Source: Elusimicrobiota bacterium
GTDB lineage: Bacteria > Elusimicrobiota > Elusimicrobia > UBA1565 > UBA9628
Direction: 5' to 3'
NCBI GenBank assembly: GCA_026388095.1
Contig: JAPLKL010000005.1
Coordinates: 1-64,000, forward strand
Length of the DNA: 64,000 nt
Below the pieces are notes generated by a model. The model saw only the letters and a program-made list of their open reading frames with translations. It was not told the DNA's origin and did not search any database. Shown piece by piece: positions 22,982 through 51,644 of the stretch. The stretch's first letter is position 1, and the number at the start of each line of letters is the position of its first letter. Both the position numbers and the translations under genes were made by a program.

Positions 22982-23791
22982 TCAGGGCTTGAGGAAGGTC
23001 CCCTTGCCGCCGGTCCCGAGGACCGCCTGGCAGAGGTTCCGGCCGTCCTTGGCGCAGCGCAGGATGCGCGCGGAGCCGGCGCGGCCGTGGCTGAGCAAGG
23101 CGAAGAGCTTCTCCACCTTCTTGCGCATGCCTCCGGTGACGTCCGGGGCGTGGGAGCCGCGGATTACGCCGAAGAGCTCCTTGATGTTGGCGCGGCTGAT
23201 GGCGGGGATGGTCTTACCGTCGTGCCCAAGGACCCCGTCGGTGTCCGAGACCATCACGATGCGGTCGAAGTGGATGCGGCGGCTCAGGGCTTCCAGCAGG
23301 GCTTCGGTGGAGGCGATGGTAAAGCCCCTCTTGGAATCGAGGATGACGTCGCCGTGCAGGACGGGGACCTGTCCTGCTTCCAAGAGCGCCTGGATGCTGG
23401 ATATGTCGAGGCGGCGCACGGCTCCGCTTGCGGCCCGAGCTACGGCGAAAGGCGAGACGGTGACGGGGTAGAGTCCCCCCCGGTAGCAGTGCTTCAGGAA
23501 AAGCTGGTTCATGTGCGTCATGGACTCGCGGATCTTGTAGAGGCCTTCCCAGCCGTGCCTGGGATGCACGCCCGCGACCGCGCCGTACTTCTTGGCCAGG
23601 ATGTGTCCGTAGGAGCCGGCCCCGTGGCCAAGGACCAGTCGGATGGGCCGGCCCTTGCGCGCGGAGGCGTCCATGGCTTTGCGGATGGCACGGGCGGCCG
23701 CGGCGATGCGGGCGCCGTTGAGGCTGTCCGTGACGGTCTTGTCCGTGATGAACGAGCCGCCGAGCTTGACGAAGACGCTAACAGGCTTCAA
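22982..23791 (-). CDS. ipk: Isopentenyl phosphate kinase
   Basis: A 269-residue amino-acid-kinase-fold enzyme that phosphorylates isopentenyl phosphate to IPP. Family motifs are FVKLGGSFITDK at residue 7, LVLGHGAGSYGH near 53 (the final His matches the catalytic His of archaeal enzymes), and VPVLHGDVILD near 143. IVMVSDTDGVLG near 178 and PDVTGGMRKKVEKL near 215 follow. The start is TTG 23791, supported by an AGGAGG site 6 nt upstream; it overlaps the AcnX small-subunit gene by 14 nt. This is the last gene of the operon and the step that distinguishes archaeal-type from classical mevalonate pathways. Confidence 0.93.
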   Translation of the reverse strand: MKPVSVFVKLGGSFITDKTVTDSLNGARIAAAARAIRKAMDASARKGRPIRLVLGHGAGSYGHILAKKYGAVAGVHPRHGWEGLYKIRESMTHMNQLFLKHCYRGGLYPVTVSPFAVARAASGAVRRLDISSIQALLEAGQVPVLHGDVILDSKRGFTIASTEALLEALSRRIHFDRIVMVSDTDGVLGHDGKTIPAISRANIKELFGVIRGSHAPDVTGGMRKKVEKLFALLSHGRAGSARILRCAKDGRNLCQAVLGTGGKGTFLKP

Positions 23792-24176
23792 AGATGACCT
23801 CCTGATCCTTGACCCTCACCATGGCGCCGTCTTTGAGCGCCGAGAGGTCGATGCTGTCGACGGTGGGGATGGAGCCGATGATGGCGCCGACGGCCACGAT
23901 GGTGTCGCACTCGGAGAGGATCATGGCCGCCGGGGCTTTGCCGGTCTTGCGCAGGGCGTAGAGGATGTAGGAGCCGACCGTGCTGCCCTTGGCGCGCGGG
24001 AAGACCAAAATTCGGCCTTTGACGCATTTGCCGTCGAGGGGATGCCCGGCTTCGCGGTAAACACCGGTCTTGGGGTCGAGGTGGCCGAAGAGGCCCAGCG
24101 GAGCGTCGGACTTGAGCACCTTCCCCGCGCCGGTGCCGCTGAAGATGAGGCGGCCTTTCAGCCCTCTTCTAGGCAT
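23778..24176 (-). CDS. Aconitase X small (swivel) subunit, putative phosphomevalonate dehydratase small subunit
   Basis: A 132-residue protein of the aconitase X swivel family (formerly DUF126). Seen motifs are the GRLIFSGTGAGKVL start, DGKCVKGRILVFPRAKGSTVGSY near residues 48-70 with the conserved Ser in KGST, ALRKTGKAPAAMI, and a GSIPTVDSID segment near 101. With the large subunit it should form the enzyme that dehydrates mevalonate 5-phosphate to trans-anhydromevalonate 5-phosphate, as shown for the archaeal enzyme. ATG 24176 overlaps the large-subunit stop by 8 nt. Confidence 0.9.
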   Translation of the reverse strand: MPRRGLKGRLIFSGTGAGKVLKSDAPLGLFGHLDPKTGVYREAGHPLDGKCVKGRILVFPRAKGSTVGSYILYALRKTGKAPAAMILSECDTIVAVGAIIGSIPTVDSIDLSALKDGAMVRVKDQEVIFEAC

Positions 24177-25380
24177 CGGGTGCCTCCTTCCAGAAGCCTC
24201 TGAGCGCGGCCTCGACGTTCTGCTCCAAGGAGCCGAAGTACACGCCGGCCCCATGATGGGACGGCAGATAGAAGGCCGCCTTGGCGGAATCCGTGGCCAC
24301 GGTATGGATGCCGAGCTCCTGGAGCGGCGCCACCACGATGCAGGTGTCCGCCACCAAGGTCGCGCCGCAGCGCCCCAGAGCCGCGGCCACGCCGGTCTCC
24401 CCGGCGTGCTTGCGCACGTCCTCGGCCACGAATATCCAGAAAGGGACCTTGGCCTTGCGCCAATTCAGGAGCCTCAAGATGCGAGTCAGGTCCTCGGGCG
24501 AAGCGTGCGGACAGCCCACCGCCACCACGTCGAGCTTGCCCTTGCCGCAGTTCAAGGCCCGGCGCCCCTCGTCGAGACTGTCGACCACGCTCTTCTGTTT
24601 CGCGGCCTTGGCCAGCTTGGAGCCCTGCGCCGCCGCCTCCGGAGTCACGCAGTCCAGATGATATAAGCCCACCGAGCCCGAGGCGGCCATGCCCGCGCCC
24701 AAAGCCTTGAGCCAGGTCAAACGCTCAGGCCCGGCCGGCGGCGTCGTGCCCGTGAGGAACGGGACGCCCCCGTTCTTGTCCGACGAGACCAGACGCCCTA
24801 CAAGATAGCCCAATGCCCCCGCATCCGCGGCCGCGGGAACCAGGCATCTCACCTCGATGACGCGGGTGGGCAGACGCCCTTCGTCCGTGTGCAGGGTGTG
24901 CCGAGGCGTCAGCCCGGTCAAAGCCGCGGCGATGGCGGAAGGCCCCCCCTCGCGGTTGGTGCGCGCGCCCAGCACGGAGTTGGCGAAGCAGACGGCCGAA
25001 GACTCGGCCCAAGCCACATGCTCCCCGAGCTTGGGAGTCACTCCCACATGGTACGGCGTGCAGGTCAACGATGGCCTGATGCCCAGCCCTTCCAAAGCCT
25101 TGATCACGCGCTCCTGCTTGCGCACGTATGCGGCGGAGAATCCCAGGCTCTTCCAAATCCGGCGGTCCGAGCCGCCCGGGTTCATGGTGGCGGGAACCAC
25201 GGCTTTGGAGCCCATCGCCGCCCACTCCTCGAGGAAGGCCAGCCCGTGCTCGCCGATGTTCCCGTAGCTGACGCCCGAGACCTGCACCGAGCCGACCGGG
25301 ACCATGTCCCGGGCGCCGTGGATGCGGCCCAAGGCCTCCAGGATCTCCATGGCCTTGGCCGCGCCCTTGCCTTTCTTCAT
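24169..25380 (-). CDS. Aconitase X catalytic (large) subunit, putative phosphomevalonate dehydratase
   Basis: A 403-residue protein with clear aconitase X motifs: PVGSVQVSGVSYGNIGEHG near residues 28-46, VPATMNPGG, TCTPYHVG with a Cys at 107, and the diagnostic AESSAVCFANSVLGARTNREGG at 125-146. GCPHAS has a Cys at 290 and DTCIVV a Cys at 347. Cys107, Cys290 and Cys347 are candidate iron-sulfur ligands. Aconitase X proteins act in hydroxyproline catabolism or as phosphomevalonate dehydratase. The surrounding mevalonate genes favour the second. Start ATG overlaps the UbiD-family stop (ATGA). Confidence 0.92.
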   Translation of the reverse strand: MKKGKGAAKAMEILEALGRIHGARDMVPVGSVQVSGVSYGNIGEHGLAFLEEWAAMGSKAVVPATMNPGGSDRRIWKSLGFSAAYVRKQERVIKALEGLGIRPSLTCTPYHVGVTPKLGEHVAWAESSAVCFANSVLGARTNREGGPSAIAAALTGLTPRHTLHTDEGRLPTRVIEVRCLVPAAADAGALGYLVGRLVSSDKNGGVPFLTGTTPPAGPERLTWLKALGAGMAASGSVGLYHLDCVTPEAAAQGSKLAKAAKQKSVVDSLDEGRRALNCGKGKLDVVAVGCPHASPEDLTRILRLLNWRKAKVPFWIFVAEDVRKHAGETGVAAALGRCGATLVADTCIVVAPLQELGIHTVATDSAKAAFYLPSHHGAGVYFGSLEQNVEAALRGFWKEAPDA

Positions 25381-26633
25381 TCCGCAACTTTCTGGAAGAG
25401 CGACAAGTCGCCGGACTTCACCGTGGCGTCGAGGCCCAGCTTCGCGCTGCGGCTCTTGCCCCCCTCCACGTGCCGCGCCGAGGGGTCCAAGGAGCTGGCC
25501 GGCTGGTCCTTGAGGATGAGAGTGTCGGTGTCGGCCTGGAAGCGCGTGGCCAAGGCCCACTCCACCTCGGCCGGGTCCGAGATGTCCACGTCTTCGTCCA
25601 CCACGACGCAATGCTTCAGCGAGCGGTGGGCGCGGAAGGCCGATTCCAGGGCCTTAGGGCCGTCCTCGGCGCGCTCCTTGGATATCCTCACCGCGGCGTG
25701 CAGCCAGGAGCAGCCTCCCGGCGTGATGCGCACGTCCACACAGCGGCAGACCTTATTGACCTCGCGGTAGATGTCGAGCTCCTTGGGGATGCCCATCAAG
25801 GTCTTATGGTCGAGCTTCCCCGGGACGATGGCGTAGTGGATGGGGTCTTTCCTGCACGCCACCCGCGTGATCTCGAAGACCGGCTGCTGGCGTACGAAAT
25901 CCATTGTGCCAGTGATGTCCACGAACGGCCCCTCGGGCCCGCGGTCGCCCGTGAAGCGGCCCTCGATGACCATCTCGCAGTCATCGGGGACCTCCAGGTC
26001 CACGGTCTTGCAGCGCGACAAGCGCACCGGGCCGAGGTTCGCGGCCAGGTCCAACTCGCTGACGTCCGGGGCCGGGGACAGCGCCGCGGCGAAGAGCACG
26101 TGCATGGGAGCGCTGACGCAGATGGCGGCCTCGGCCTTGCCGCCCAGGCGCTTGAGCGCGGTGTCCGTGCCGCGGTTCTCCACCACGCGCACCGTGCCGC
26201 GCGAAGGCTCGGACATCATGAGCCGGTGGTAGGAGGCGTTGACGCCCAGCTCCGGGTCTTTGACGATCCAGACCCCGGCGGTCAGGTAAGGCCCGCCGTC
26301 GCCCTTGTAGTAGGTGAGGAAAGGGAGCTTCCCCCAGTCCTTGCGGGGAACTTCCACCTCGCCGTAGACCTCGCCGGTGCTCGCGGCTTTCGCCCCTTTC
26401 TCCAGGAGGCTGTCCAGCTCGAAGAGGAACTTCTCCGGGGCGACGCCCAAGCGGCGGGCCAGCGTGTCCCGGTCCGGAAGGATGTTGGCCAGGACCTGGG
26501 AGCCGCCCGCATCAGCGAGGAGGACCGGCTTCGGCTCGGCCTTGCGGATGAGCGCCGAGGCTTCCAGGAAGAGCTTCGCCTTCTTCCTGACCGGGCTCAA
26601 CTTCGCCGCGATGGAGCGCAGGTCCAGGCTCAT
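25377..26633 (-). CDS. UbiD-family decarboxylase, putative trans-anhydromevalonate 5-phosphate decarboxylase
   Basis: A 418-residue UbiD-family protein, on the short side for the family, as archaeal homologues are. Motifs include NASYHRLM near residue 132 (the N-x-x-x-x-R prenylated-FMN/metal region), MVIEGRFTGDRGPEGPFVDITG with Glu224 and Glu234, and the VVVDEDVDI segment near 343. Such enzymes use prenylated FMN. In this operon the expected reaction is decarboxylation of trans-anhydromevalonate 5-phosphate to isopentenyl phosphate. UbiX, which makes the cofactor, is encoded directly upstream with a 4-nt overlap. Substrate assignment rests on context. Confidence 0.92.
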   Translation of the reverse strand: MSLDLRSIAAKLSPVRKKAKLFLEASALIRKAEPKPVLLADAGGSQVLANILPDRDTLARRLGVAPEKFLFELDSLLEKGAKAASTGEVYGEVEVPRKDWGKLPFLTYYKGDGGPYLTAGVWIVKDPELGVNASYHRLMMSEPSRGTVRVVENRGTDTALKRLGGKAEAAICVSAPMHVLFAAALSPAPDVSELDLAANLGPVRLSRCKTVDLEVPDDCEMVIEGRFTGDRGPEGPFVDITGTMDFVRQQPVFEITRVACRKDPIHYAIVPGKLDHKTLMGIPKELDIYREVNKVCRCVDVRITPGGCSWLHAAVRISKERAEDGPKALESAFRAHRSLKHCVVVDEDVDISDPAEVEWALATRFQADTDTLILKDQPASSLDPSARHVEGGKSRSAKLGLDATVKSGDLSLFQKVAE

Positions 26634-27193
26634 CGCTGCCCCCAGCGGCGCATCAGCTTGTTCTCCACGCCCAGCAGGTCCAGGATCTTCGCCACGAAGA
26701 AATCCGTCATGTCGTCGACGGTCTTGGGGCCGTGGTAGTATGCGGCGCAGGGCGGCATGATGATCGCCCCGCCGCGCTTGAGGGCCGCCATGTTCTCTAT
26801 CGCGGCCAGAGAGAGCGGAGTCTCCCGGGGCACCACGACGAGCTTGCGGCCCGTGCGCAGCATGCCGTCGGCGGCGCGGACCAGCAGGTTTTGGGCGTAG
26901 CCCGAGGCCATGGCGGAGAGGGACTTGACCGAGCAGGGGGCCACGACCATGGCGTCGACCAAAAAGGATGTGCTGTTGAGCGGCGAGGCCGAGTCGTCCT
27001 CCGCGTGCACGACCGCGCCCTTGGGGAAGCGGAAATCCTTGCCGACCTCGTGTCGGATGACTTCCCGGGCCGCGTCGGTCACGATGACGTGCACCTCTCG
27101 GCCCGCGGTCAGGAGCTCCTCCACGGTGCGTATCCCTATGATGACCCCGGAGGCCCCGGAGATCCCGACCACGAACCGTTCAGTCTTCTTCAT
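26630..27193 (-). CDS. ubiX: UbiX-type flavin prenyltransferase
   Basis: A 187-residue protein of the usual length. It attaches a dimethylallyl group to FMN, giving the prenylated cofactor of UbiD enzymes. Motifs are VVGISGASGVIIG at the start, a DAMVVAPCSVKSLSAMASG segment near residue 83, and LVVVPRETPLS near 120. ENMAALKRGGAIIMPPCAAYY near 133 follows. The gene lies between mevalonate kinase (14-nt overlap) and the UbiD-family gene (4-nt overlap), strong evidence that it serves that decarboxylase. It needs a dimethylallyl donor, itself a product of this pathway. Confidence 0.95.
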   Translation of the reverse strand: MKKTERFVVGISGASGVIIGIRTVEELLTAGREVHVIVTDAAREVIRHEVGKDFRFPKGAVVHAEDDSASPLNSTSFLVDAMVVAPCSVKSLSAMASGYAQNLLVRAADGMLRTGRKLVVVPRETPLSLAAIENMAALKRGGAIIMPPCAAYYHGPKTVDDMTDFFVAKILDLLGVENKLMRRWGQR

Positions 27194-28142
27194 GGTCGCT
27201 CACCTCCGTCAGGAACGTGGCGGCCGCGCCGGCGGCCTTGAGGGCGCGCTGCGCGCGCTTGGCGCAGAGCGGGTCGTCCGTGAGGGCCGCCATGCACCCC
27301 CCGCGCCCCGCGCCGCTGAGCTTGGCGCCCAGCGCGCCCGCGGACCGGGCCGCGCCGACCAAGGCGTCGAGCTCGGGCGAGGACACCCCGAGGCTTATGA
27401 GCAGCTCCTGATTGCGGTCCATGAGCCGGCCGAGCTCGCTCCAGCGGCCGGCCTGGAACGCCTCGGCGCCCGGCCCGGCGAGACGGCCGATGTCCTTGAA
27501 CAGCGCGTCGTAGCGGGCCGGGTTCGTGCCGCGGGCCCGGGCCACCTCGGCCACGATCTCCGCGGTGCGATGCCTTTTGCCCGTATGCCCGACGACCAAG
27601 AAGCCGCGGGTCCGGGGCGCGGAGAGGAACCGGGCCGGAGTCCCCTTCCTGAACAGGATCGGCCGCCCCAGCGCGATGACGGTGTTGTCTATGCCGCTGG
27701 GCTTGCCGTGGTGGAGCTTCTCTATCTCATAGACCAGCTCGGAGAGGACCTGCGGGGTGTAAGGGACGCGGAAATAGCGGAAGATGGCCCGGAAGGCGGC
27801 GGCCGTGACCGCGGTCCCGCTGCCCAGCCCGCAGCCCGAAGGGATCTCCGAGCGCACCGAGAGCTTCCAGCCCCGGGTGGGGACCACGGGAAAGCGCCTG
27901 ACCGCGGCCTGGATGATGCGGGAGAAGGACTCGGCCTCGGGCGGGGGCGCGGACATGCCATCCCAGCGGATGTCGTAATCCGTCAGCTCGACGGCCACCG
28001 CCTGGCTCGGGGCCGCCTGGCAGACCTTGGCTTGGGCCCTGGGATCTTTCAGGGGCACGGCCAGGGCGGCCTCGCCGTAGACCACGGCGTGCTCCCCCAG
28101 GAGGATGAGTTTCGAGGCGGCTTCCGCGGATTCGCAGCGCAA
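27180..28142 (-). CDS. mvk: Mevalonate kinase
   Basis: A 320-residue GHMP-family kinase that makes mevalonate 5-phosphate. Motif 1 appears as KLILLGEHAVVYGE near residue 11, motif 2 as PSGCGLGSGTAVTAA near 100, the substrate-region HGKPSGIDNTV near 145, and motif 3 as AKLSGAGRGGCMAAL near 278. VVYG and the GIDN context fit mevalonate kinase and not phosphomevalonate kinase or diphosphomevalonate decarboxylase. The start is a TTG at 28142, 3 nt after the HMG-CoA reductase stop; no strong Shine-Dalgarno site is adjacent, so the exact start is less certain. Confidence 0.93.
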   Translation of the reverse strand: MRCESAEAASKLILLGEHAVVYGEAALAVPLKDPRAQAKVCQAAPSQAVAVELTDYDIRWDGMSAPPPEAESFSRIIQAAVRRFPVVPTRGWKLSVRSEIPSGCGLGSGTAVTAAAFRAIFRYFRVPYTPQVLSELVYEIEKLHHGKPSGIDNTVIALGRPILFRKGTPARFLSAPRTRGFLVVGHTGKRHRTAEIVAEVARARGTNPARYDALFKDIGRLAGPGAEAFQAGRWSELGRLMDRNQELLISLGVSSPELDALVGAARSAGALGAKLSGAGRGGCMAALTDDPLCAKRAQRALKAAGAAATFLTEVSDHEED

Positions 28143-28145
28143 AGG

Positions 28146-29507
28146 CTATTGGCCGTCGTTCTCCGGGGTGTCCTGCTTGTGGGCGATCATCTTCTTGAGG
28201 ATCTCCTTGGCCCGGTCGAAGCGGATGCGGCCTTCCTGTATCATCTGGTTGGCGACCGCGATGGCCATATCCCCGATGGCGCCGGCGGAATAGGCGACAT
28301 TGCGGGCGTGGAGGGTCATGTGCCCCTCCTGGATGCCTTCCGTCACCAGAGCCTTCAGAGCGGCCAGGTTCTGCACCAGCCCCACCGTGGCCACGACCTC
28401 GGCCAGCTCGCGGCGCGAAGGCATGCCCATCAAGCGCAGCAGGAGCTCCACGCCGGTGTGCAGCTTCGACACCCCGCCCACCACTCCCACGGCGATAGGC
28501 AGCTCGATCTCGCCGATGAGCTTGCCGTCCTCGAGGCGGTACTTGGAGAGCGACCGGTAGCGGCCGGTCTTGGCCGCATAGGCGTGCGCGCCCGCTTCCA
28601 CGGCCCGCCAGTCGTTGCCGGTGGCGATGAGCACCGCGTCGATGCCGTTCATGATGCCCTTGTTGTGAGTGGCGGCCCGATAGGGGTCCGCGTCGGCGAA
28701 ATGGTAGGCCTTGACGATGCGCTCGGCCACGGCCTGCCCGTCGAAGGTCTTGCTCTTGAGGCAGGCCGGGTTGAGCTCCACGCGGGCGCGGACCAAGGAC
28801 TTGTCGCAGAGGTTGGAGATGATCTGGCAGACCACCTCGGCCTTGGCGATCTCTCCGAGGATCGGCCCGAGGGTCTCGACCATGGTGTTGACCGCGTTGG
28901 CGCCCATGGCGTCCACCACGTCCACGGCCAGATGCACGATGAGCATGGTGCCGCTCTCGGTCTCCAGGCGCCGCGTATAGAGGTCGCGGGCCCCGCCCCC
29001 GAGGTTGACCAAGGTGCGGTCCTGCTTGTTGGCCAGCAGGAGGAGCCGCTCCTTGGCTTCCGCGATGTCCTTGACGGCCTGGTCCGGGTCGTGCGGATGG
29101 ACCAGTTGGACCTGGCCTTCCATGATGGCGTGGGAGGCGTTGGCGGTCAGCTTGCCGTTCTCCCGGATGAGCTTGGCCAGGTTGCTGCAGGCCGCTACGA
29201 TGGAGGTCTCTTCCACGGCCATGGGGATGACGTAGTCCTTGTCGTTGATCCGGAAATTGACCGCGACACCCAAAGGCAGGCCGAAGACGCCGATGACGTT
29301 CTCGACCATCACGTCGGCCTGCTCGGCGGTCAGGCTCTCGTTCTTGAGTATCCACTTCTCCTTGGTGGTCAGGGGGTACCAGTCCGCGAGCTTGTCCAGG
29401 CGCTCCCAGACGTCGAGGTTGTAGAAGCCGGGGAAGCGCGAGGTGCGCAGCATCTTCTTGTCGGCGGGCGGCTCTATCTTGGCTTTCGGCTTCGGTTGTT
29501 GATCCAT
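28146..29507 (-). CDS. mvaA: Class II HMG-CoA reductase
   Basis: A 453-residue enzyme reducing HMG-CoA to mevalonate. It is the class II (bacterial, soluble) type: no membrane segments and a VENVIGVFGLPLGVAVNF block near residue 68. MAVEETSIVAACSN carries catalytic Glu100, and VDAMGANAVNTMVE lies near 198. HNKGIMNGIDAV has Lys283, GND has Asp299, and EGHMTLHARN near 394 has the catalytic His. Spacing of Lys and Asp equals that of the Pseudomonas mevalonii enzyme. ATG 29507 overlaps the isomerase stop by 34 nt; an ATG at 29453 would avoid overlap but lacks a Shine-Dalgarno site. Confidence 0.96.
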   Translation of the reverse strand: MDQQPKPKAKIEPPADKKMLRTSRFPGFYNLDVWERLDKLADWYPLTTKEKWILKNESLTAEQADVMVENVIGVFGLPLGVAVNFRINDKDYVIPMAVEETSIVAACSNLAKLIRENGKLTANASHAIMEGQVQLVHPHDPDQAVKDIAEAKERLLLLANKQDRTLVNLGGGARDLYTRRLETESGTMLIVHLAVDVVDAMGANAVNTMVETLGPILGEIAKAEVVCQIISNLCDKSLVRARVELNPACLKSKTFDGQAVAERIVKAYHFADADPYRAATHNKGIMNGIDAVLIATGNDWRAVEAGAHAYAAKTGRYRSLSKYRLEDGKLIGEIELPIAVGVVGGVSKLHTGVELLLRLMGMPSRRELAEVVATVGLVQNLAALKALVTEGIQEGHMTLHARNVAYSAGAIGDMAIAVANQMIQEGRIRFDRAKEILKKMIAHKQDTPENDGQ

Positions 29508-30523
29508 TCTCTCAATTGTCCTGTGATCACGGGCTTGTGCCTCTTCAGGGCCGGGATATCCCGGGCCCCGACCAGGAGCATGACGGCCTTGAGCTCCGCG
29601 ATCACGTCTTGCAGGCAGGCCAGCGCGCCGCCGTAGCCGCCGCGCCTATAGGCGCGCAGCACCGGCAACGCCAAGCCCACCACGTCGGCGCCGAGGACGA
29701 GGCATTTGGCGGCGTCCAGGCCGTCGCGGATGCCTCCCGAAGCCACGAGCTCGAAGCCCAGAGGGGAGGTCTCCCAGAGCGACGCGGCCGTGGGGATGCC
29801 CCAATCGTCGAGCCACGACCGCTGCGCCGGGTCGACGCCTTTCCTGAGGTTCTCCACCCGCGGCCAGGACGTCCCGCCCGCGCCCGCCACGTCCAAGGTC
29901 CGTACGCCTGCGGCCTTGAGACGGCGCGCCACCTCCCGGGAGATGCCGCAGCCGGTCTCCTTGACCATGATCTTTCCGGGCATGCGGCGGGTCAGGGACC
30001 TGAGGGTCTTGAGGCCGCCGATGAACCGCTTGTCGCCCTCGGACTGGCTCAGCTCTTGGGCCGGGTTGAGGTGGATGGCCAGACCGTCGGCCTGTATGCT
30101 GGCGACGAGTCGTTCCACATCCGAGGGGTCCGCGGCGGCGGCCTGCTGCAGGCCGATGTTTCCCAGGATCGGGATGTCCGGAGCGAAGCGCCGGAGGGCA
30201 TAGGAGCCGATCAGGCCGGGGTCCTCCAGCATGGGGCGCTGGCTGCCCAGGCCGAAGGCGATGCCCAGTTGCTGGGCGACTTTGGCCAAGTCCCGGTTGA
30301 GAGCCTGGGCCGCTTGGAGCCCGCCCGAGATGGCGGTGATCATGAGAGGCGCGCGCAGAGGCCTGCCCATGAACCGGGTCTCGGTGCTGATCTCATCGAA
30401 CGAGACCTCGGCGAGGGCGGCATGCACCAGCCGGATATGCTCCAGCCAGGTGCTCTGGCGCCGGAACTCCACGTCCATCTCAGTGCAGATTCGGAGATGG
30501 TCCGCCTTGCGGCCCTGGCTCAT
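29474..30523 (-). CDS. fni: Type 2 isopentenyl-diphosphate delta-isomerase
   Basis: A 349-residue FMN-dependent enzyme interconverting IPP and DMAPP. Motifs are RKADHLRIC at the start, PLMITAISGG near 73, and FGLGSQRPMLED near 106. ILGNIG follows, and HLNPAQELSQSEGD near residue 160 carries the Mg/substrate Asn, Gln and Glu. VKETGCGIS and DVAGAGGTSW are near 210-240. It is the first gene of the eight-gene operon. An AGAGG Shine-Dalgarno site precedes ATG 30523. Type 2 isomerases are common in archaea and in bacteria that use mevalonate. Confidence 0.96.
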   Translation of the reverse strand: MSQGRKADHLRICTEMDVEFRRQSTWLEHIRLVHAALAEVSFDEISTETRFMGRPLRAPLMITAISGGLQAAQALNRDLAKVAQQLGIAFGLGSQRPMLEDPGLIGSYALRRFAPDIPILGNIGLQQAAAADPSDVERLVASIQADGLAIHLNPAQELSQSEGDKRFIGGLKTLRSLTRRMPGKIMVKETGCGISREVARRLKAAGVRTLDVAGAGGTSWPRVENLRKGVDPAQRSWLDDWGIPTAASLWETSPLGFELVASGGIRDGLDAAKCLVLGADVVGLALPVLRAYRRGGYGGALACLQDVIAELKAVMLLVGARDIPALKRHKPVITGQLREWINNRSRKPR

Positions 30524-30611
30524 GCACCTCTATTTTCCCATTTTTCCGACCTGCCGTCAAAGCTTAGCCCGGCGCTCGCGCCGCTTTTGGTACAATGTCG
30601 CGGGTACTTTG
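30524..30611. promoter_or_regulatory. Divergent promoter region between the mevalonate operon and dxr
   Basis: The 88-nt gap drives fni leftward and dxr rightward. For dxr, TACAAT at 30591-30596 lies 15 nt before the ATG at 30612. For fni, a TTGACG at about 30562-30557 on the minus strand is followed after about 17 nt by an AT-rich GAAAAT, then the AGAGG site and ATG 30523. A GC-rich near-palindrome, GGCGCTCGCGCC, is at about 30571-30582. The two isoprenoid routes therefore share one control region. Confidence 0.55.
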
Positions 30612-31763
30612 ATGAAGCGCATCGCCATCCTCGGCTCCACCGGCTCGATCGGCCGCAACGCCCTGCGCGTGGTCGACGCCATGCCCGGGCGCTTCCGTGT
30701 CGTCGGCCTGGCCGCGCATTCCAACGGGGAACTGCTCTTCCGGCAGGCTTTGCGCTACAAGCCCGCCATGGTCTCGCTCTTCGAGCCCGCCGCCTCCGAA
30801 GGCCTCCAGGGCCGGCCTCACGGCTGCCGGCGCCTGCCCTCCGGGGTCGAGGGCCTGGTCGAGATGGCCTGCCACCCCGACGTGGACCTGGTCCTGACCA
30901 GCCTGGTCGGCGGCGTGGGCTTCGCCCCCCTCCTGGCGGCGCTGCGCGCGGGCAAGACCGTGGCCCTGGCCAACAAGGAGCCCATGGTCATGGCCGGCGC
31001 CCAGTTCATGCGCGAGGCCAAGCGTTGGGGCGCGCGCATCATCCCCGTGGATTCCGAACCCTCCGCCGTTTTTCAATGCCTCAACGGCTCGCCGGGGGGA
31101 AGCGTGCGCCGCGTCCTGCTCACCGCTTCGGGCGGCGCCTTCTACGGGCGCCGGGGTTCTCTAGATCGGGTCCGGGTCGCCGAGGCCCTGCGCCATCCGA
31201 CCTGGAAGATGGGCCGCAAGATCACGATCGACTCGGCGACGCTGATGAACAAGGGCTTCGAGACCATCGAGATCATGCACCTCTTCGGGCTCGGGCACAA
31301 GGCCATCGAGATCGTGATCCACCCCCAGTCCATCGTGCACTCGGCCGTGGAGTTCTCCGACGGCTCGGTCCTGGCCCAGATGGCGCCCCCGGACATGCGG
31401 CTGCCCATCCAATACGCCCTGGCCTACCCCGAACGCGCCGCCGCGATCGTCAAGAGGCTCGATCTGGCCGCGGCCGGCGGCCTGACCTTCTCGCGGCCTG
31501 ATTTCCGGCGCTTCCCCTGCCTGGCGCTGGCCCTCGAGGCCGCGGCGGCCGGCGGCGGCATGCCCGCGGTGCTCAACGCGGCCGACGAGGTCGCGGTGGA
31601 CGCCTTCACGGCCGGGCGCATCCGTTTCACGCAGTTGGCGCGGGTCGTGGAAAGGACCATGCGGTCCTTCCGCGGCGGCCGCGGGCTGCCCGGCTTTTCC
31701 GAGGTCGTGGAGATCGATCAGTGGGCCCGGAGCAAGGCCCAGGAGGCTTGCACCCGGCTATGA
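30612..31763 (+). CDS. dxr: 1-deoxy-D-xylulose 5-phosphate reductoisomerase
   Basis: A 383-residue enzyme of the MEP isoprenoid pathway. NADPH site GSTGSIG is at residues 8-14. ALANKEPMV carries Lys122; VDSEPSAVFQ has Asp147, Ser148 and Glu149; and TASGGAF has Ser173. HPTWKMGRKITIDSATLMNKGFE has His195, Ser208, Asn213, Lys214 and Glu217, and HPQSIVHS has His238. All metal and most substrate residues are kept. The His that normally follows the Glu in the DSEH motif is replaced by Pro150. It overlaps rseP by 4 nt. Its normal neighbour cdsA is now 8 kb away. Confidence 0.96.
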   Translation: MKRIAILGSTGSIGRNALRVVDAMPGRFRVVGLAAHSNGELLFRQALRYKPAMVSLFEPAASEGLQGRPHGCRRLPSGVEGLVEMACHPDVDLVLTSLVGGVGFAPLLAALRAGKTVALANKEPMVMAGAQFMREAKRWGARIIPVDSEPSAVFQCLNGSPGGSVRRVLLTASGGAFYGRRGSLDRVRVAEALRHPTWKMGRKITIDSATLMNKGFETIEIMHLFGLGHKAIEIVIHPQSIVHSAVEFSDGSVLAQMAPPDMRLPIQYALAYPERAAAIVKRLDLAAAGGLTFSRPDFRRFPCLALALEAAAAGGGMPAVLNAADEVAVDAFTAGRIRFTQLARVVERTMRSFRGGRGLPGFSEVVEIDQWARSKAQEACTRL

Positions 31764-45312: not shown

Positions 45313-47967
45313 ATGCTGACCGTCGCGATCGCGACCCATGACCGGGAAAAAACGCTCAAGCGCTGCCTGCTGGCTCTGAGCGCGGCGCAGGCGCCGCCCG
45401 GGGGCTGGAAGCTCATCGTCGCGGACGACGGGAGCACGGACGGGACCCGCGCCGTCGTTTCGGAGTTCGCGGGGCTCATGCCCCTCGAATACGCCCATGG
45501 CGGGTGCTGCGGCAAGAGCGCGACGCTCAACTCGATCGTCCCCCGGCTCGACGGGGACGTCGTCGTCCTGTGCGACGACGACATCCTGGTTCCTCCCGGC
45601 TGGCTCATCGAGCATCGGCGCCTGGCCGACGACACGCCGGATTACGACGTCTTCGGCGGCCGCCTCCTGCCCGAATGGGAGCAGCGGCCTCCGCCCTGGC
45701 TCTTGCGCGCCGTCCCGCCCAACACCGCTTTCGCGATCACCGCGGACGACGCCGTCGAGGGCCCCTGCGAGCCATGGGCGATCTGGGGCGGGAACATGAG
45801 CGTGCGCCGCAGCGTCTTCCGGGAAGGCTTCCGTTACGATCCCGATCTGGGCCCCAGCGCCCGCACGGGCGATCGCGCCATGGGCGAGGACTACGATTTC
45901 GTGCAGCGGCTCGCGGCGGCGGGCCATCGCTGCTGGTTCAGCAGGAAGGTGGCGGCCCGCCATGTCATCCGGGCGGAGCAGCTCAAGGCCCCGTGGCTCC
46001 ACGCGAGAGCCGAGAGCTACGGGCGCGGGCTCGGCAGGGCCTATAGCGATGGGGGCGCGGCGCGGGCGCTCGCCGCCGGCGCGCGCGAGGCCGCCAAGCT
46101 CCTCGTCTCGGGCTGCCGGAGGCTCGCGCCCGGGCCGGAGAGCCGCCTGCGGGCCGGCTGGGACTTCCACCAGAGCCGGGGAATCCTGCGCCAGCTTGCC
46201 GCGGAGCTCGCCGGGCGCGCGTCGAGGCCGGCCGAGCCGATCGTTCCGCCGCGCTGTGATGACGGCGTCGGACTGAGCGTCGTCATCGCCTCCTTTCACC
46301 GCGCGGCCGGACTCGACCGGCTGCTCACCCTCCTGCGCCCGCAGGTGGAGGGGCGCGCCCGGCGGCGCGTGATCGTGGTGAGCGACGCGAGTCATGACCG
46401 GGCTTGCGCGCAGGTGCTCGGGCGCCATCGCCGGTTCGTCGACTCCGTCGCGGCCCCGAAAAATGGCGGGCTCGCGGCGGCGCGCAACCTCGGCGGCGCG
46501 CGCGCGGACCAGGACTTCCTGGTGTTCATCGACGACGACTGCGAGCCTCCGCCGTACTGGCTCGATTGGCTGGCCTCCGTCATCGCCGAAAACCCGGATG
46601 CCGACGCGGTCGGCGGGGCGACTCGCCCTTTGCTGTCGCCGCGCCCCGGTGTGTTCGAGCGCTTCCTCGCCGAATGCGGCTTTCATCCCAACCCCGTCGC
46701 GCACGACCGCCGCCTGACGCTGATGGTCACGGCCAACCTCGCGGTGCGGCGGGCGCTGTTCCTGGCAGTGGGCGGGTTCGACGAGACGATGAGGACGGCA
46801 GAGGACCGCAATCTGACGTACCGGCTCTCCCGCCGCGCGGCTGTGCTCCACCTCGATCCGGCTTGGTTCGTCTATTACAGCATGACCAGCTCGCCGTGGG
46901 CGCATTTCCGGCACTACTACCACTACGGCCGGGGACTTTCGCGCGCGCTGGCGCTCGAGGCGGATCCTCCTGACCGCGCCTTGTGGCCGCCGGAGGAGAG
47001 GCCGCCGGGCTACTGGCGCTCGCGAGCCGCGCAGAGGCTCAGGAACGAGCGCTCTCGCCCGGAGTATGGCGAGCGCCCGTTGCTGGAGCGGTATCTCTTC
47101 GCCGCCCTCGCCGCCCTGACCCATCTCGCCTTGGACATGGGCTTCGCGCGGGCCGGCAAGCGCCCGGATGCCGGCTCGTCAGCGCCAAGCCCGACCGAGC
47201 GGATGCTCGCGAAATTGAAGAAATTCGTAAAAATGGGCGTTTCATGTTGTCGTCACGCCAAGCGGGCTTTGCTGCTGGGAAAAGAGCCGGAGCTCATCAT
47301 CATCGTTCCTTACCGTCAGCGCGCAGAGGACCTCAAGCAATTCGTGCCCCACATGCATCGCTTCTTGCGGGACATCAAGCATCGCATCGTCGTGATCGAG
47401 CAGGCGGGGAGCGGCTTGTTCAACCGGGCCAAGCTGCTCAACGTGGGCTTCAAGCTGTACCAGGATCAAAAGGCCTACTTTTGCTTTCACGACGTCGACA
47501 TGCTGCCGGAATCGGCCGCGTGCGATTACTCGTACCCTGTCATGCCGACTCATCTTGCCGCGTATTGCTCCCAGTTCGATTATCAGATGCTGCCGTCGTA
47601 CTTCGGAGGCGTGCTTCTGGTCAATAAAGAAGACTTCCAGCGTATTAATGGGTGCAGCAATCAATACTGGGGGTGGGGCGGGGAGGATGATGATTTAAGA
47701 AAGAGGTTTGATCAAACCTGGACGATTCCAAGGCGCCGCCGGATGGGCAGGTATCATTGCATCGAGCGCCTGGCTTGCGATCATCCCATGGCGCATGAGG
47801 AAGCCAAGCGCCAGGGCAACCCGCAGTATGGGACAAATAGGACGCGCCTGGGATCGGGTGAGGTTTTGCCTTATGATTCAGGAGACGACGGGCTGTCGGG
47901 CCTTCGCTATGAACATGTCGAAACGATCATCGAGGACGGTTACGTGAGACATGTCGTGCTTATTTGA
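45313..47967 (+). CDS. Three-domain glycosyltransferase: GT2-GT2-GT7 (beta-1,4-galactosyltransferase-like)
   Basis: An 884-residue protein from ATG 45313. Domain 1 (about 1-245) is a GT2 fold with TVAIATHDREKTLKRCL, VADDGSTDGT and the LCDDDI metal motif. Domain 2 (about 320-570) is a second GT2 with LSVVIASFHRAAGLDRLL and FIDDDCEPP. Domain 3 (about 660-884) matches family GT7: IIIVPYRQR, FNRAKLLNVGF, CFHDVDMLPE, YFGGVLLV, and NQYWGWGGEDDDLRKR. The last is the acceptor/metal block of animal beta-4-galactosyltransferases. DNA from about 47210 onward is AT-richer, so the GT7 part may be acquired. Likely makes a surface polysaccharide or glycolipid. Confidence 0.88.
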   Translation: MLTVAIATHDREKTLKRCLLALSAAQAPPGGWKLIVADDGSTDGTRAVVSEFAGLMPLEYAHGGCCGKSATLNSIVPRLDGDVVVLCDDDILVPPGWLIEHRRLADDTPDYDVFGGRLLPEWEQRPPPWLLRAVPPNTAFAITADDAVEGPCEPWAIWGGNMSVRRSVFREGFRYDPDLGPSARTGDRAMGEDYDFVQRLAAAGHRCWFSRKVAARHVIRAEQLKAPWLHARAESYGRGLGRAYSDGGAARALAAGAREAAKLLVSGCRRLAPGPESRLRAGWDFHQSRGILRQLAAELAGRASRPAEPIVPPRCDDGVGLSVVIASFHRAAGLDRLLTLLRPQVEGRARRRVIVVSDASHDRACAQVLGRHRRFVDSVAAPKNGGLAAARNLGGARADQDFLVFIDDDCEPPPYWLDWLASVIAENPDADAVGGATRPLLSPRPGVFERFLAECGFHPNPVAHDRRLTLMVTANLAVRRALFLAVGGFDETMRTAEDRNLTYRLSRRAAVLHLDPAWFVYYSMTSSPWAHFRHYYHYGRGLSRALALEADPPDRALWPPEERPPGYWRSRAAQRLRNERSRPEYGERPLLERYLFAALAALTHLALDMGFARAGKRPDAGSSAPSPTERMLAKLKKFVKMGVSCCRHAKRALLLGKEPELIIIVPYRQRAEDLKQFVPHMHRFLRDIKHRIVVIEQAGSGLFNRAKLLNVGFKLYQDQKAYFCFHDVDMLPESAACDYSYPVMPTHLAAYCSQFDYQMLPSYFGGVLLVNKEDFQRINGCSNQYWGWGGEDDDLRKRFDQTWTIPRRRRMGRYHCIERLACDHPMAHEEAKRQGNPQYGTNRTRLGSGEVLPYDSGDDGLSGLRYEHVETIIEDGYVRHVVLI

Positions 47968-48733
47968 CGAACGCTTTTCCAAACGGGTGGAAGGCCCTTC
48001 TCCCGGACTGCTTGGCAAGCTCTTCGGCGATTGTCGATAAGCTGATTTCTTTACTGTCGCAATTGAAGAACCCTTGCTCTTGTTCGTCGAACCATTTCCT
48101 GCATAAGCGAGTGTCATAGAGCTTGAAGCCAAAAACCTGGCTGAACAAGGGGATTCTCAGTTCATCATGGCATAGCTCGGGGATATCGGCGTTGCTGTAT
48201 TCCTCCAAAAATCCTCTTGGCATGCATGCGCCTGGGAACTCGCATGCAAATGGTTCCTGACTATAGCCGTACTTATCCTTCACGAATCCCAAAAGACGAT
48301 GCCATTGAGTTCTTAAGGATTCTTCGGAAAGCCAAAACCACTGTTTCTCTATATTCTTCAACGGTATCAATGAGGTGAGGCCTATGCCTTTCTCAGGTAT
48401 GTGGCCGTACATCTTCTCCAAAGATTCGAGAAGCAGCAGATCCCATTCAATATAATGGATGGTGTCGAAGGAAACCATCTTGCCGACTTCCTCGTACCAT
48501 AACTTCATTGCCAAGTCGCCGTGCGTCCGCTTCCAAGATGGCGACTTTTCTCTAATGCAATATAAATCTTCCAGGTATGGATTCAGCGCCTCTCTAAAAT
48601 GCTCCGAATCATTTTCCTGGCCGCCAAAAAGACCGAAAATCGCGACGCCGGGGTTGTGCCTTTTCAAAAGCTCCAGCCTATTCCTGCAGACAGCGGCATC
48701 AGTGTGGAATCTGAAAAGGATTATCCTCTTCAT
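47960..48733 (-). CDS. Hypothetical protein in the glycosyltransferase island
   Basis: A 257-residue soluble protein of AT-richer composition than most of the window. It starts MKRIILFRFHTDAAVCRNRL and contains an IEWDLLLLE segment near residue 93 that could be a D-x-D-like nucleotide-sugar/metal site. Further on is CEFPGACMPRGFL. The overall look (conversion of a named residue-rich strand, then acidic motif) suggests a small GT-A-type glycosyltransferase, but I do not recognise the family. It overlaps the upstream GT4 gene by 4 nt and the convergent tri-domain gene by 8 nt. Confidence 0.65.
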   Translation of the reverse strand: MKRIILFRFHTDAAVCRNRLELLKRHNPGVAIFGLFGGQENDSEHFREALNPYLEDLYCIREKSPSWKRTHGDLAMKLWYEEVGKMVSFDTIHYIEWDLLLLESLEKMYGHIPEKGIGLTSLIPLKNIEKQWFWLSEESLRTQWHRLLGFVKDKYGYSQEPFACEFPGACMPRGFLEEYSNADIPELCHDELRIPLFSQVFGFKLYDTRLCRKWFDEQEQGFFNCDSKEISLSTIAEELAKQSGRRAFHPFGKAFVK

Positions 48734-49941
48734 GGCTTATGCCTTGGACTCTCATCGGCCTTGAAGGCAGCTATGGCTCCGGCATAAGCATCTACTGTCT
48801 GCCGCGCAATCACATTTATATCGAAATCTGCGCGTATCGATTCGACAGCTCTTTGCGATATCTCCTGCCTCAACTGATCATTTTGAAGCAATTCCACCAG
48901 ACCATCAGCCAGCGCCTCCACATCGCCGGGAGGGATTAGCAATCCTGATTGTCTGTCCTTGATGACCTCTCCGAGACCGCCCGCCCTGCTGGCCAGCACT
49001 GGACAGCCGCAAGCCATCGCCTCGAAGACCACCGTACCGCCGGGTTCGTAAAGGGAAGGCACGGCGCAGATCGTCGCCGTCTGATAATATCGGATGAGCT
49101 CTTGCGTCGATAGGGAGCCCAAATAGATGACATGCTCCGTGGAAAAATAATCCATCAGGCGTTGGGACCATGACCGGTGACGGTCATCATATTCCTGATC
49201 CTTCCCCGCAAAACAGAATCTTGCTTTGGGCATTTTTCTTAGAACCAAGGCGATGGCATGCGCAAGTATTTCGATCCCTTTGGATTTTTCCAATCGTCCC
49301 GCAAAAAGGATCAATTGTTCTTCCCGAGAGGCGCCGCTTGGGTGAAAGAGGTTCGAATCAACGGCAATGGGGATGATCTGTACTTCTTTCCCCTTGATTT
49401 CCCATGCCTCTCGGACGAAATCAGTATAAGACTGCGATACCCCTGTGACAAGATCTGCGGACAAAATGTGCTTTCTTTTGCTGGTCCAGTAAAAATAATT
49501 CCTGGGCCATCGTTTTAGTATTCCCCCGTCGAATTCGGCTTTGAATCCGGGATAGCCGTGCAGCCTCACACAAACAGGCACTTGGCGTTCAGGCAAATAA
49601 TGCCCGGCATCAACCCCCCAATCTGTCGCTTCTATTATGTCGATGGCGTGATCCTTGACGATGGCGGGCAGGACCTCTTTCATGCGGCGGCTGTAGCGCC
49701 AGGTGGATAAAGGGAAGATGCTCTCTAATCGCAAGAATCCGCTAAAGGGATCTTCTCTTAGACTGAATTGATGGATAGATATTCTGTCTTCGAAGCCTTT
49801 GAGGTCCCGTTGGCCTTTCCCGGTCAGTGAAACGATATGTACATTATGCCCCAGCCTGGCCAGGGCTATTGACATATTGTGGACATAACTCTCTGTTCCT
49901 GCCTGAGTGCTGAAGGAACGGATCAGATAACAGATGTTCAT
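48730..49941 (-). CDS. GT4-family glycosyltransferase
   Basis: A 403-residue GT-B enzyme. The N-terminal domain has NICYLIRSFSTQAGTESYVHNMSIALARLGHNVHIVS, and ITGVSQSY-like LVTGVSQSYTDFV near residue 155. The C-terminal domain has ILFAGRLEKSKGIEILAHAI near 215 and the donor-site E-x7-E region AVPSLYEPGGTVVFEAMACGCPVLASRAGGLGEVI near 305. ATG 49941 has an AAGG site upstream; an ATG at 49965 adds extra residues. It lies 30 nt after potC on the same strand but has lower GC, so it probably belongs to the acquired sugar island and not to the transporter. Confidence 0.9.
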   Translation of the reverse strand: MNICYLIRSFSTQAGTESYVHNMSIALARLGHNVHIVSLTGKGQRDLKGFEDRISIHQFSLREDPFSGFLRLESIFPLSTWRYSRRMKEVLPAIVKDHAIDIIEATDWGVDAGHYLPERQVPVCVRLHGYPGFKAEFDGGILKRWPRNYFYWTSKRKHILSADLVTGVSQSYTDFVREAWEIKGKEVQIIPIAVDSNLFHPSGASREEQLILFAGRLEKSKGIEILAHAIALVLRKMPKARFCFAGKDQEYDDRHRSWSQRLMDYFSTEHVIYLGSLSTQELIRYYQTATICAVPSLYEPGGTVVFEAMACGCPVLASRAGGLGEVIKDRQSGLLIPPGDVEALADGLVELLQNDQLRQEISQRAVESIRADFDINVIARQTVDAYAGAIAAFKADESPRHKP

Positions 49942-49971
49942 TTCTGCCTTGCCGTCGTGTGGCATGCGCCC

Positions 49972-50751
49972 CTATCCGAGGCGGGACCTTCGGTTCAGGA
50001 TACTCTGCAGCGCCAGGAACGTGATGGTGATGCCCAGCAGGCAGGATGCCAAAGCGTTGATCTCGGGGGTGACCCCGAATTTCATCATCGAGTAGATCTT
50101 GATGGGCATGGTCACGATCCCGATGCCCGCGATGAAGAAGCTGGTCACGAAATCCTCGAAGCTCACCGTGAAGGCCAGAAGCGCCCCGCTGATGATGGCC
50201 GGCCGGGCCAGAGGCAAGGTGATCTTCCGGAACGCCTCCCATTCCGTGGCGCCCAGGTCCATGGCGGCGTCTTCGAGATTGTTCTCCTTCAAGGAGAGCA
50301 GTCTGGCGCGGATGGCCGCGGTCGTGTAGGGCAGCGCGATGAGCGCGTGAGCGCAGGCCAGGCTCCAGAAGTTCAACGGCATGCCCACCCGCGAGAAGAA
50401 AGACAGCAGACCTACCCCCATCACGATCTCGGGCATCATCAAGGGCGCGTTGAGCAGAGCCGAATACAGACCCCGGCCCCGGAAAGGCGCGTGGCGGGTC
50501 ATGGCATAGGAGGCGAGCATGCCCATGACCGCCGCCAAGAGGCTCGCCACCACGGCCAGCTCCAGCGTGGTCGCCACGGCGCGGGCCAGTTCCGCGTCAT
50601 GGAAGAGATTCCCGTACCACTGGAAGGTGAAGCCCTTCCAGGCCACGTTGCGCCTCGCCTCGTTGAAAGAGAAGGCCACCATCACCGCCAGAGGCAGATA
50701 CAAGAAGGCGTAAAGGCCCGCGCAGTAGGCTTGCAGGCCGCGCCCCTTCAT
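49972..50751 (-). CDS. potC: Polyamine ABC transporter permease (PotC-type)
   Basis: A 259-residue inner-membrane permease with about six transmembrane helices. The EAA loop that contacts the ATPase is present near residue 165 as LEDAAMDLGATEWEAFRKITLPLARPAI. The start ATG overlaps the potB stop (ATGA). PotC pairs with PotB as the channel of a spermidine/putrescine-type importer. Family motifs cannot tell which polyamine is carried. Confidence 0.93.
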   Translation of the reverse strand: MKGRGLQAYCAGLYAFLYLPLAVMVAFSFNEARRNVAWKGFTFQWYGNLFHDAELARAVATTLELAVVASLLAAVMGMLASYAMTRHAPFRGRGLYSALLNAPLMMPEIVMGVGLLSFFSRVGMPLNFWSLACAHALIALPYTTAAIRARLLSLKENNLEDAAMDLGATEWEAFRKITLPLARPAIISGALLAFTVSFEDFVTSFFIAGIGIVTMPIKIYSMMKFGVTPEINALASCLLGITITFLALQSILNRRSRLG

Positions 50752-51644
50752 TCGGCCTCCTCGAATAGCCCCTGCTCCTCGAACCGGTGCCGGGCGTAGA
50801 GTCCGGAAACCAGCAGCAGGACCAGGCACGATGTCAAAGCCGAGCCGAACTGCCAGTCCTGGGACATGAGGAACTGGTTCTGGACCAGGTTGCCCACCAG
50901 ATAGGTGCGCGGGCTGCCTAGGAAATCGGCGCACAGGAAATCGCCCATGCAGGGCACGAAGGTCAGGATGGCCCCGGCCAGGACGCCGGGCAATGAGAGC
51001 GGCAGCGTGACCTTCAAGAAGGCCTCGGTCTTGCCCGCGCCCAGGTCGTGCGCCGCCTCCACGTAGGAGCGCGGGATCTTCTCCAGACTCGCGTAGAGGG
51101 GCAGCACCATGAAGGGTAGGTAGAAATAGACCAGGCCCAGGATGACCGAGAACGAGGTGCCCAGGAAGGCGATGGGAGGGAGGCCCAAGTGACGCAAGAG
51201 CCCATTGAGCAGCCCTTCTCTGCCCAGGATGATGATCCAGGAATAGATGGCCACGAGCCAGGAGGTCCAGAACGGGATCATGAGCAGCGCCAGGAACAGG
51301 TCGCGCCTCTTGCCGGCCTGGAAGCTCAGGAAATAGGCCAGCGGGTAGCCCAAGAGCAGGCACAGCAGCGTGGTCGAAGTCGCATAGCATACGGTGCGCA
51401 CTAGGATGGGCAGGTACTTGAGGTCCAGGGCGCGGCGGAAATTGGCCAAGGTGAAGACCCATTCGAAGGCCCCGTAAGGCCCGCGATGGGTGAAGCCCAA
51501 GCACAGCAAGGAGGCCACGGGAAGGACGAGGAATACGGCCAGCCAGAGCGTGGCCGGGGCCAGCAGGAGATGGCTGGCCGAAGACCTCTCCCCGCGGATG
51601 AGCCAGGAGAAAGTCCGGTCTACAAAGCTTTGACGTCGGACCAA
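50748..51644 (-). CDS. potB: Polyamine ABC transporter permease (PotB-type)
   Basis: About 298 residues if it begins at the TTG at 51644, which overlaps potD by 25 nt; the exact start is uncertain because no ATG or clear Shine-Dalgarno site is near. Six transmembrane helices are visible. The EAA loop YVEAAHDLGAGKTEAFLKVTLPLSLPGV lies near residue 190. It forms the heterodimeric membrane channel with PotC. Gene order potA-potD-potB-potC, all overlapping, shows a single operon. Confidence 0.9.
   Translation of the reverse strand: MVRRQSFVDRTFSWLIRGERSSASHLLLAPATLWLAVFLVLPVASLLCLGFTHRGPYGAFEWVFTLANFRRALDLKYLPILVRTVCYATSTTLLCLLLGYPLAYFLSFQAGKRRDLFLALLMIPFWTSWLVAIYSWIIILGREGLLNGLLRHLGLPPIAFLGTSFSVILGLVYFYLPFMVLPLYASLEKIPRSYVEAAHDLGAGKTEAFLKVTLPLSLPGVLAGAILTFVPCMGDFLCADFLGSPRTYLVGNLVQNQFLMSQDWQFGSALTSCLVLLLVSGLYARHRFEEQGLFEEAE

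Follow-up and report, generated by a model that had tools for sequence, protein, structure and literature searches.

The trans-anhydromevalonate phosphate pathway was described in Aeropyrum pernix (Hayakawa 2018, as cited in PMC10663253), and in 2023 this archaeal route was still called unique to archaea (PMC10040528). According to a 2026 review that cites Kanno 2024 (PMC13001223), some Chloroflexota also encode the archaeal-type pathway. A different variant, the haloarchaea-type mevalonate pathway of haloarchaea and Chloroflexota, combines a GHMP-type decarboxylase with isopentenyl phosphate kinase (IPK) (Dellas 2013, PMC11052028). The [4Fe-4S] cluster of A. pernix phosphomevalonate dehydratase (PMDh) is held by three cysteines at sites A, 1 and B (PMC10040528), and the residues contacting mevalonate 5-phosphate (MVA5P) have been described for the AcnX of T. 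kodakarensis (PMC8184944).

Here, we analysed a stretch of 64,000 nucleotides (the window) from an Elusimicrobiota MAG. An operon of eight genes lies on its minus strand at 22982-30523, in the order type 2 IPP isomerase (IDI2), class II HMG-CoA reductase (HMGR), mevalonate kinase (MVK), UbiX, UbiD, AcnX large subunit, AcnX small subunit and IPK. From the protein families, their order and the residues seen in AcnX, we infer that this operon very probably encodes the archaeal lower mevalonate pathway, with each activity and the flux through the route being predicted.

Organization and distribution of the operon

IDI2, HMGR, MVK, UbiX, UbiD and IPK were judged by curated NCBIfam cut-offs and the two AcnX subunits by Pfam cut-offs; all eight proteins score above them (Table 1), and the identities, order and coordinates given in the original prediction for eight minus-strand genes hold. 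The same is true of its description of the genes as overlapping or nearly touching, because neighbouring genes either overlap or are separated by at most 3 bp. The small AcnX subunit probably starts at 24176, as opposed to 24254 where the longest ORF starts. In the divergent stretch between the operon and dxr, a sigma-70-like match is present on the minus strand (30560-30532, 9/12), which is a match to the consensus only.

Table 1. Genes of the operon and the adjoining dxr region in the window
Feature	Position	Strand	Evidence
Type 2 IPP isomerase (idi2), first gene of the operon	29474..30523	-	TIGR02151, 346 bits vs cut-off 281
Class II HMG-CoA reductase	28146..29507	-	TIGR00532, 393 bits vs cut-off 260
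Mevalonate kinase	27180..28142	-	TIGR00549, 233 bits vs cut-off 163
UbiX flavin prenyltransferase (makes prenylated FMN)	26630..27193	-	TIGR00421, 200 bits vs cut-off 109
UbiD-family decarboxylase, predicted anhydromevalonate phosphate decarboxylase	25377..26633	-	TIGR00148, 290 bits vs cut-off 245
AcnX large subunit, predicted phosphomevalonate dehydratase; ATG start	24169..25380	-	PF04412, 411 bits vs cut-off 31.5
AcnX small (swivel) subunit	23778..24176	-	PF01989, 106 bits vs cut-off 27
Isopentenyl phosphate kinase, last gene of the operon	22982..23791	-	NF040647 (archaeal IPK), 162 bits vs cut-off 120
Divergent intergenic stretch between operon and dxr, 88 bp	30524..30611	.	Sequence between operon and dxr
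dxr, MEP-pathway DXP reductoisomerase, divergent from the operon	30612..31763	+	TIGR00243, 422 bits vs cut-off 316

Relatives of AcnX were detected in 10 of the 341 Elusimicrobiota genomes searched, and these carriers belong to three families of one order; the matching records are titled Elusimicrobia bacterium and are all MAGs. In all ten carriers, the other operon genes follow in identical order as far as the contigs extend. Two of the contigs end inside HMGR, so that IDI2 is not visible there, and one of these two also ends inside IPK; in G183, some operon genes have broken reading frames, which are perhaps assembly errors. Because the same order recurs in nine other genomes, the gene arrangement is far beyond chance. 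The operon is located between cdsA and dxr in this genome (G000) and in G233, and cdsA follows IPK in G231, while cdsA and dxr were not found beside the operon in the other carriers with longer contigs. The patchy occurrence across the phylum suggests transfer or loss; among the viral contigs searched, no relative was found.

Predicted roles of the operon proteins

At the positions of the three cluster cysteines of A. pernix PMDh (sites A, 1 and B), the large AcnX subunit of the window carries C107, C290 and C347; its residue at site C, a cysteine in type I enzymes, is not one here. Moreover, the subunit keeps the checked MVA5P contacts of T. kodakarensis PMDh (TkPMDh), i.e. G36, V37, S38, N41, N67, E126, S127, K367 and Y371, and the best solved match of the small subunit is the small subunit of the same enzyme (4e-35). 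By contrast, the hydroxyproline-type (type I) AcnX, which belongs to the same family, is a single chain with a site C cysteine, is without the site 1 cysteine and is missing the phosphate-site residues as a set. A tree was built from PDB sequences and plasmid AcnX genes, with some outgroup rows being long. The window clade and TkPMDh were split from the type I group with support of 100/100; the window clade was joined to TkPMDh, the single archaeal AcnX included, with moderate support (83/70). The three cysteine ligands and the phosphate contacts are those of the phosphomevalonate dehydratase type, and the window AcnX shows neither the site C cysteine nor the fused small domain nor the grouping that mark the hydroxyproline type I. 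The question raised with the original prediction, on which side of the tree AcnX would fall, is answered in favour of archaeal PMDh.

UbiD has R137, E234 and D239 at the catalytic positions of UbiD enzymes, with D as in E. coli UbiD. It is the sole match to TIGR00148 in the genome; this model is not specific to archaea, and since E. coli and others also score above its cut-off, it cannot separate AMPD from other UbiD proteins. Anhydromevalonate phosphate as the substrate is predicted from the operon context. The best solved match of IPK is 3k4o, an isopentenyl phosphate kinase, and the catalytic His63 is kept. Similarly, the closest solved relatives of HMGR are class II HMGRs, e.g. 1qax, and the catalytic E99, K283, D299 and H396 are kept.

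The diphosphomevalonate decarboxylase model TIGR01240 was run against 12 genomes, among them all ten carriers, and gave no match. Five GHMP kinases were detected in this genome, i.e. MVK, homoserine kinase (thrB), IspE and two heptose-kinase-like proteins; because all five are otherwise identified, no phosphomevalonate kinase was found in the genome. Phosphomevalonate kinase and diphosphomevalonate decarboxylase, which together would indicate the classical mevalonate pathway, had been noted as absent from the cluster, and the genome-wide search was likewise without either.

In the proposed pathway, HMGR would convert HMG-CoA to mevalonate, and MVK would phosphorylate mevalonate to mevalonate 5-phosphate. 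AcnX, predicted to bind a [4Fe-4S] cluster, would convert mevalonate 5-phosphate to trans-anhydromevalonate 5-phosphate, from which UbiD, using prenylated FMN supplied by UbiX, would form isopentenyl phosphate. Finally, IPK would convert isopentenyl phosphate to IPP, and IDI2 would convert IPP to DMAPP. HMG-CoA could be supplied by an archaeal-type thiolase/HMGS/DUF35 set encoded on another contig and possibly also by leucine-type catabolism.

Two other explanations of the locus were weighed. AcnX together with UbiX and UbiD might serve another purpose, i.e. hydroxyproline metabolism or the decarboxylation of quinone or aromatic acid compounds, and merely lie among mevalonate genes. AcnX also matches the hydroxyproline dehydratase model NF051439, well under the cut-off, and the nearest solved relatives of UbiD are other UbiD decarboxylases; however, the cysteines and phosphate contacts of AcnX are of the archaeal type and not the type I set, and the order with IPK and MVK is kept in ten genomes. 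Moreover, diphosphomevalonate decarboxylase and phosphomevalonate kinase are absent, so that without AcnX and UbiD no known reactions would link mevalonate phosphate with isopentenyl phosphate. We consider another purpose very improbable. That an archaeal or otherwise foreign contig contaminates a bacterial bin might be suspected from the fact that the carriers with named records are all MAGs. This explanation is argued against by the position between cdsA and dxr on one contig, with both neighbours recurring in G233 and cdsA next to IPK in G231, by a GC content of 67.7% in the operon vs 67.2% in the window with an ordinary dinucleotide distance, and by the occurrence of the operon in ten separate genomes. 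With flanking bacterial genes and a composition like that of the surrounding chromosome, contamination of the assembly was rejected as next to impossible, and the original assignment of the operon to a bacterial chromosome stands. Altogether, the AcnX residues and tree, the lack of the two classical enzymes and the presence of HMGS and thiolase support the original proposal that this bacterium would make IPP by the archaeal route.

MEP genes and the source of HMG-CoA

The genome also contains MEP genes, i.e. dxr, which 88 bp separate from the divergently oriented operon, and dxs, ispE and ispH, which are located elsewhere in the genome. The archaeal-type pathway stands beside MEP genes and does not replace them. 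Neither these genes nor the leucine-type context of HMG-CoA described below were part of the original prediction.

Bacterial-type HMGS (PF08540) had no match in the genome. On contig C18, an archaeal HMGS (TIGR00748, 501 bits vs cut-off 353), a thiolase and a DUF35/OB-fold protein are encoded in a row, so that the search for mvaS and thiolase proposed earlier yields archaeal-type versions of both. The genes of the archaeal mevalonate pathway matched in the genome are those for HMGR, MVK, IDI2, IPK, the AcnX pair and HMGS, with UbiX and the UbiD-family protein of predicted substrate beside them. As in the archaeal thiolase/HMGS/DUF35 complex (PDB 6ESQ, 6ET9), the genes are adjacent and all three proteins match (6ESQ; E 3e-130, 4e-106 and 5e-28), but here the set is embedded in what we read as a putative leucine-degradation-type cluster, for which the family models leave the substrate unfixed: BCCP, biotin carboxylase, enoyl-CoA hydratase and carboxyltransferase are encoded directly upstream of the set, and an acyl-CoA dehydrogenase further upstream.

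A close HMGS is present in five of the ten carriers (G000, G187, G191, G213 and G214) and also in G112 and G113, which are without an AcnX match. HMGS was not detected in the other five carriers, i.e. G233 (99% complete), G234 (93%), G183 (91%) and the less complete G229 and G231; the weak PF01154 matches of G233 and G234 resemble FabH and were rejected as HMGS. The carboxyltransferase has a match in 9 of the 10 carriers, with an identity of 76-95% in G231, G233, G234, G191 and G183. The corresponding cluster of G233 includes HMG-CoA lyase, G234 has a leucine-type cluster on the operon's own contig, and an acyl-CoA dehydrogenase (G183) and a related hydratase (G213) are likewise encoded on the contig of the operon. 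The simple gene caller, which picks shadow ORFs in GC-rich DNA, was used solely to place labelled genes.

Since most carriers without a detected HMGS have the leucine-type cluster, leucine may supply HMG-CoA. Judging from gene content, leucine-derived HMG-CoA could feed the operon, with the methylcrotonyl-CoA carboxylase/hydratase-type cluster kept in several carriers without a detected HMGS linking leucine to isoprenoids beside the MEP route; we put this forward tentatively, as a possibility with somewhat less than even chances. Alternatively, the lower pathway would operate as described, while the archaeal-type HMGS set would serve leucine oxidation in place of HMG-CoA lyase and the operon would obtain HMG-CoA from elsewhere. 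The position of the set behind carboxyltransferase, enoyl-CoA hydratase, biotin carboxylase and BCCP, the HMG-CoA lyase in the G233 cluster, and G113, which has HMGS and the leucine-type cluster and no AcnX match, are consistent with such a role. However, the HMGS reaction runs strongly towards HMG-CoA, as established by enzymology, and the set matches an archaeal biosynthetic complex; a role in leucine oxidation is unlikely in our view. The carriers without a detected HMGS raise the testable question of the source of bacterial mevalonate carbon.

Comparison with known systems

The original prediction left open whether other bacteria have such a pathway; they do, as Chloroflexota were reported in 2024 (cited in PMC13001223). 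Among open-licence papers, judged by title and the start of the abstract, nothing relevant on Elusimicrobia and mevalonate was found. The archaeal route is already known in bacteria, and Elusimicrobiota is a second bacterial phylum for it; given the complete operon in this phylum, the route extends beyond archaea and Chloroflexota, the one bacterial phylum for which we found it reported. The occurrence of a compact operon in another phylum of bacteria, with MEP genes alongside, suggests movement of the route as a unit, and the operon may offer putative non-thermophile versions of the pathway enzymes.

Ca. Promineifilum breve of the Chloroflexota (Kanno 2024, as cited in PMC13001223) likewise has the archaeal route in a bacterium, but represents a different phylum. 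The haloarchaea-type pathway also ends with IPK, as here; however, it uses a GHMP-type decarboxylase, whereas no TIGR01240 match is present here. The archaeal mevalonate pathway of A. pernix has the same set of enzyme families (MVK, large and small AcnX, UbiD with prFMN, and IPK), and the AcnX residues agree; by contrast, the Elusimicrobiota host is a bacterium, its eight genes form one operon, its HMGR is of class II and it has MEP genes too.

Genes around the operon

The HTH_3 protein encoded beside the operon is a possible regulator, and none of the operon regions retrieved from the relatives gave a match to it. The iron-sulfur carrier gene in G187 would fit an Fe-S aconitase X (AcnX).

Genes near the operon in the window and in three other Elusimicrobiota genomes
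Feature	Coordinates	Genome	Position	Basis
HTH_3 protein	window:22400-22810	G000	operon strand, downstream of IPK	domain match
NUBPL/Mrp-type iron-sulfur carrier gene	L028:11754-12560	G187	immediately follows IPK	
Second undecaprenyl diphosphate synthase-like gene	L029:11676-12485	G191	beside or near operon	
Second undecaprenyl diphosphate synthase-like gene	L024:15175-15999	G234	beside or near operon	
Protein with ankyrin repeats and caspase-like domain	L024:8336-10357	G234	close to operon	

Interrupted frames and base composition

In the operon copy of the relative G183 (L027), AcnX is interrupted by a TGA and the UbiD and HMGR frames are both split, which may reflect sequencing error or decay.

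Within the window, the dinucleotide distance peaks (96.7) at the stretch starting at 41250, and ORFs with low GC3 lie at 47960-51504; window:41250-51504 is possibly foreign.

HMG-CoA synthase cluster

On contig C18 of G000, a leucine-degradation-type carboxylase/hydratase cluster is followed directly downstream by genes for an archaeal-type HMG-CoA synthase, a thiolase and a DUF35 protein (L030:8310-15447). Close by, an IS91/ISCR-like transposase match (L030:3146-4549) scored below the curated cut-off. By contrast, a corresponding cluster of G233, another operon-carrying genome, has HMG-CoA lyase in place of these three genes.
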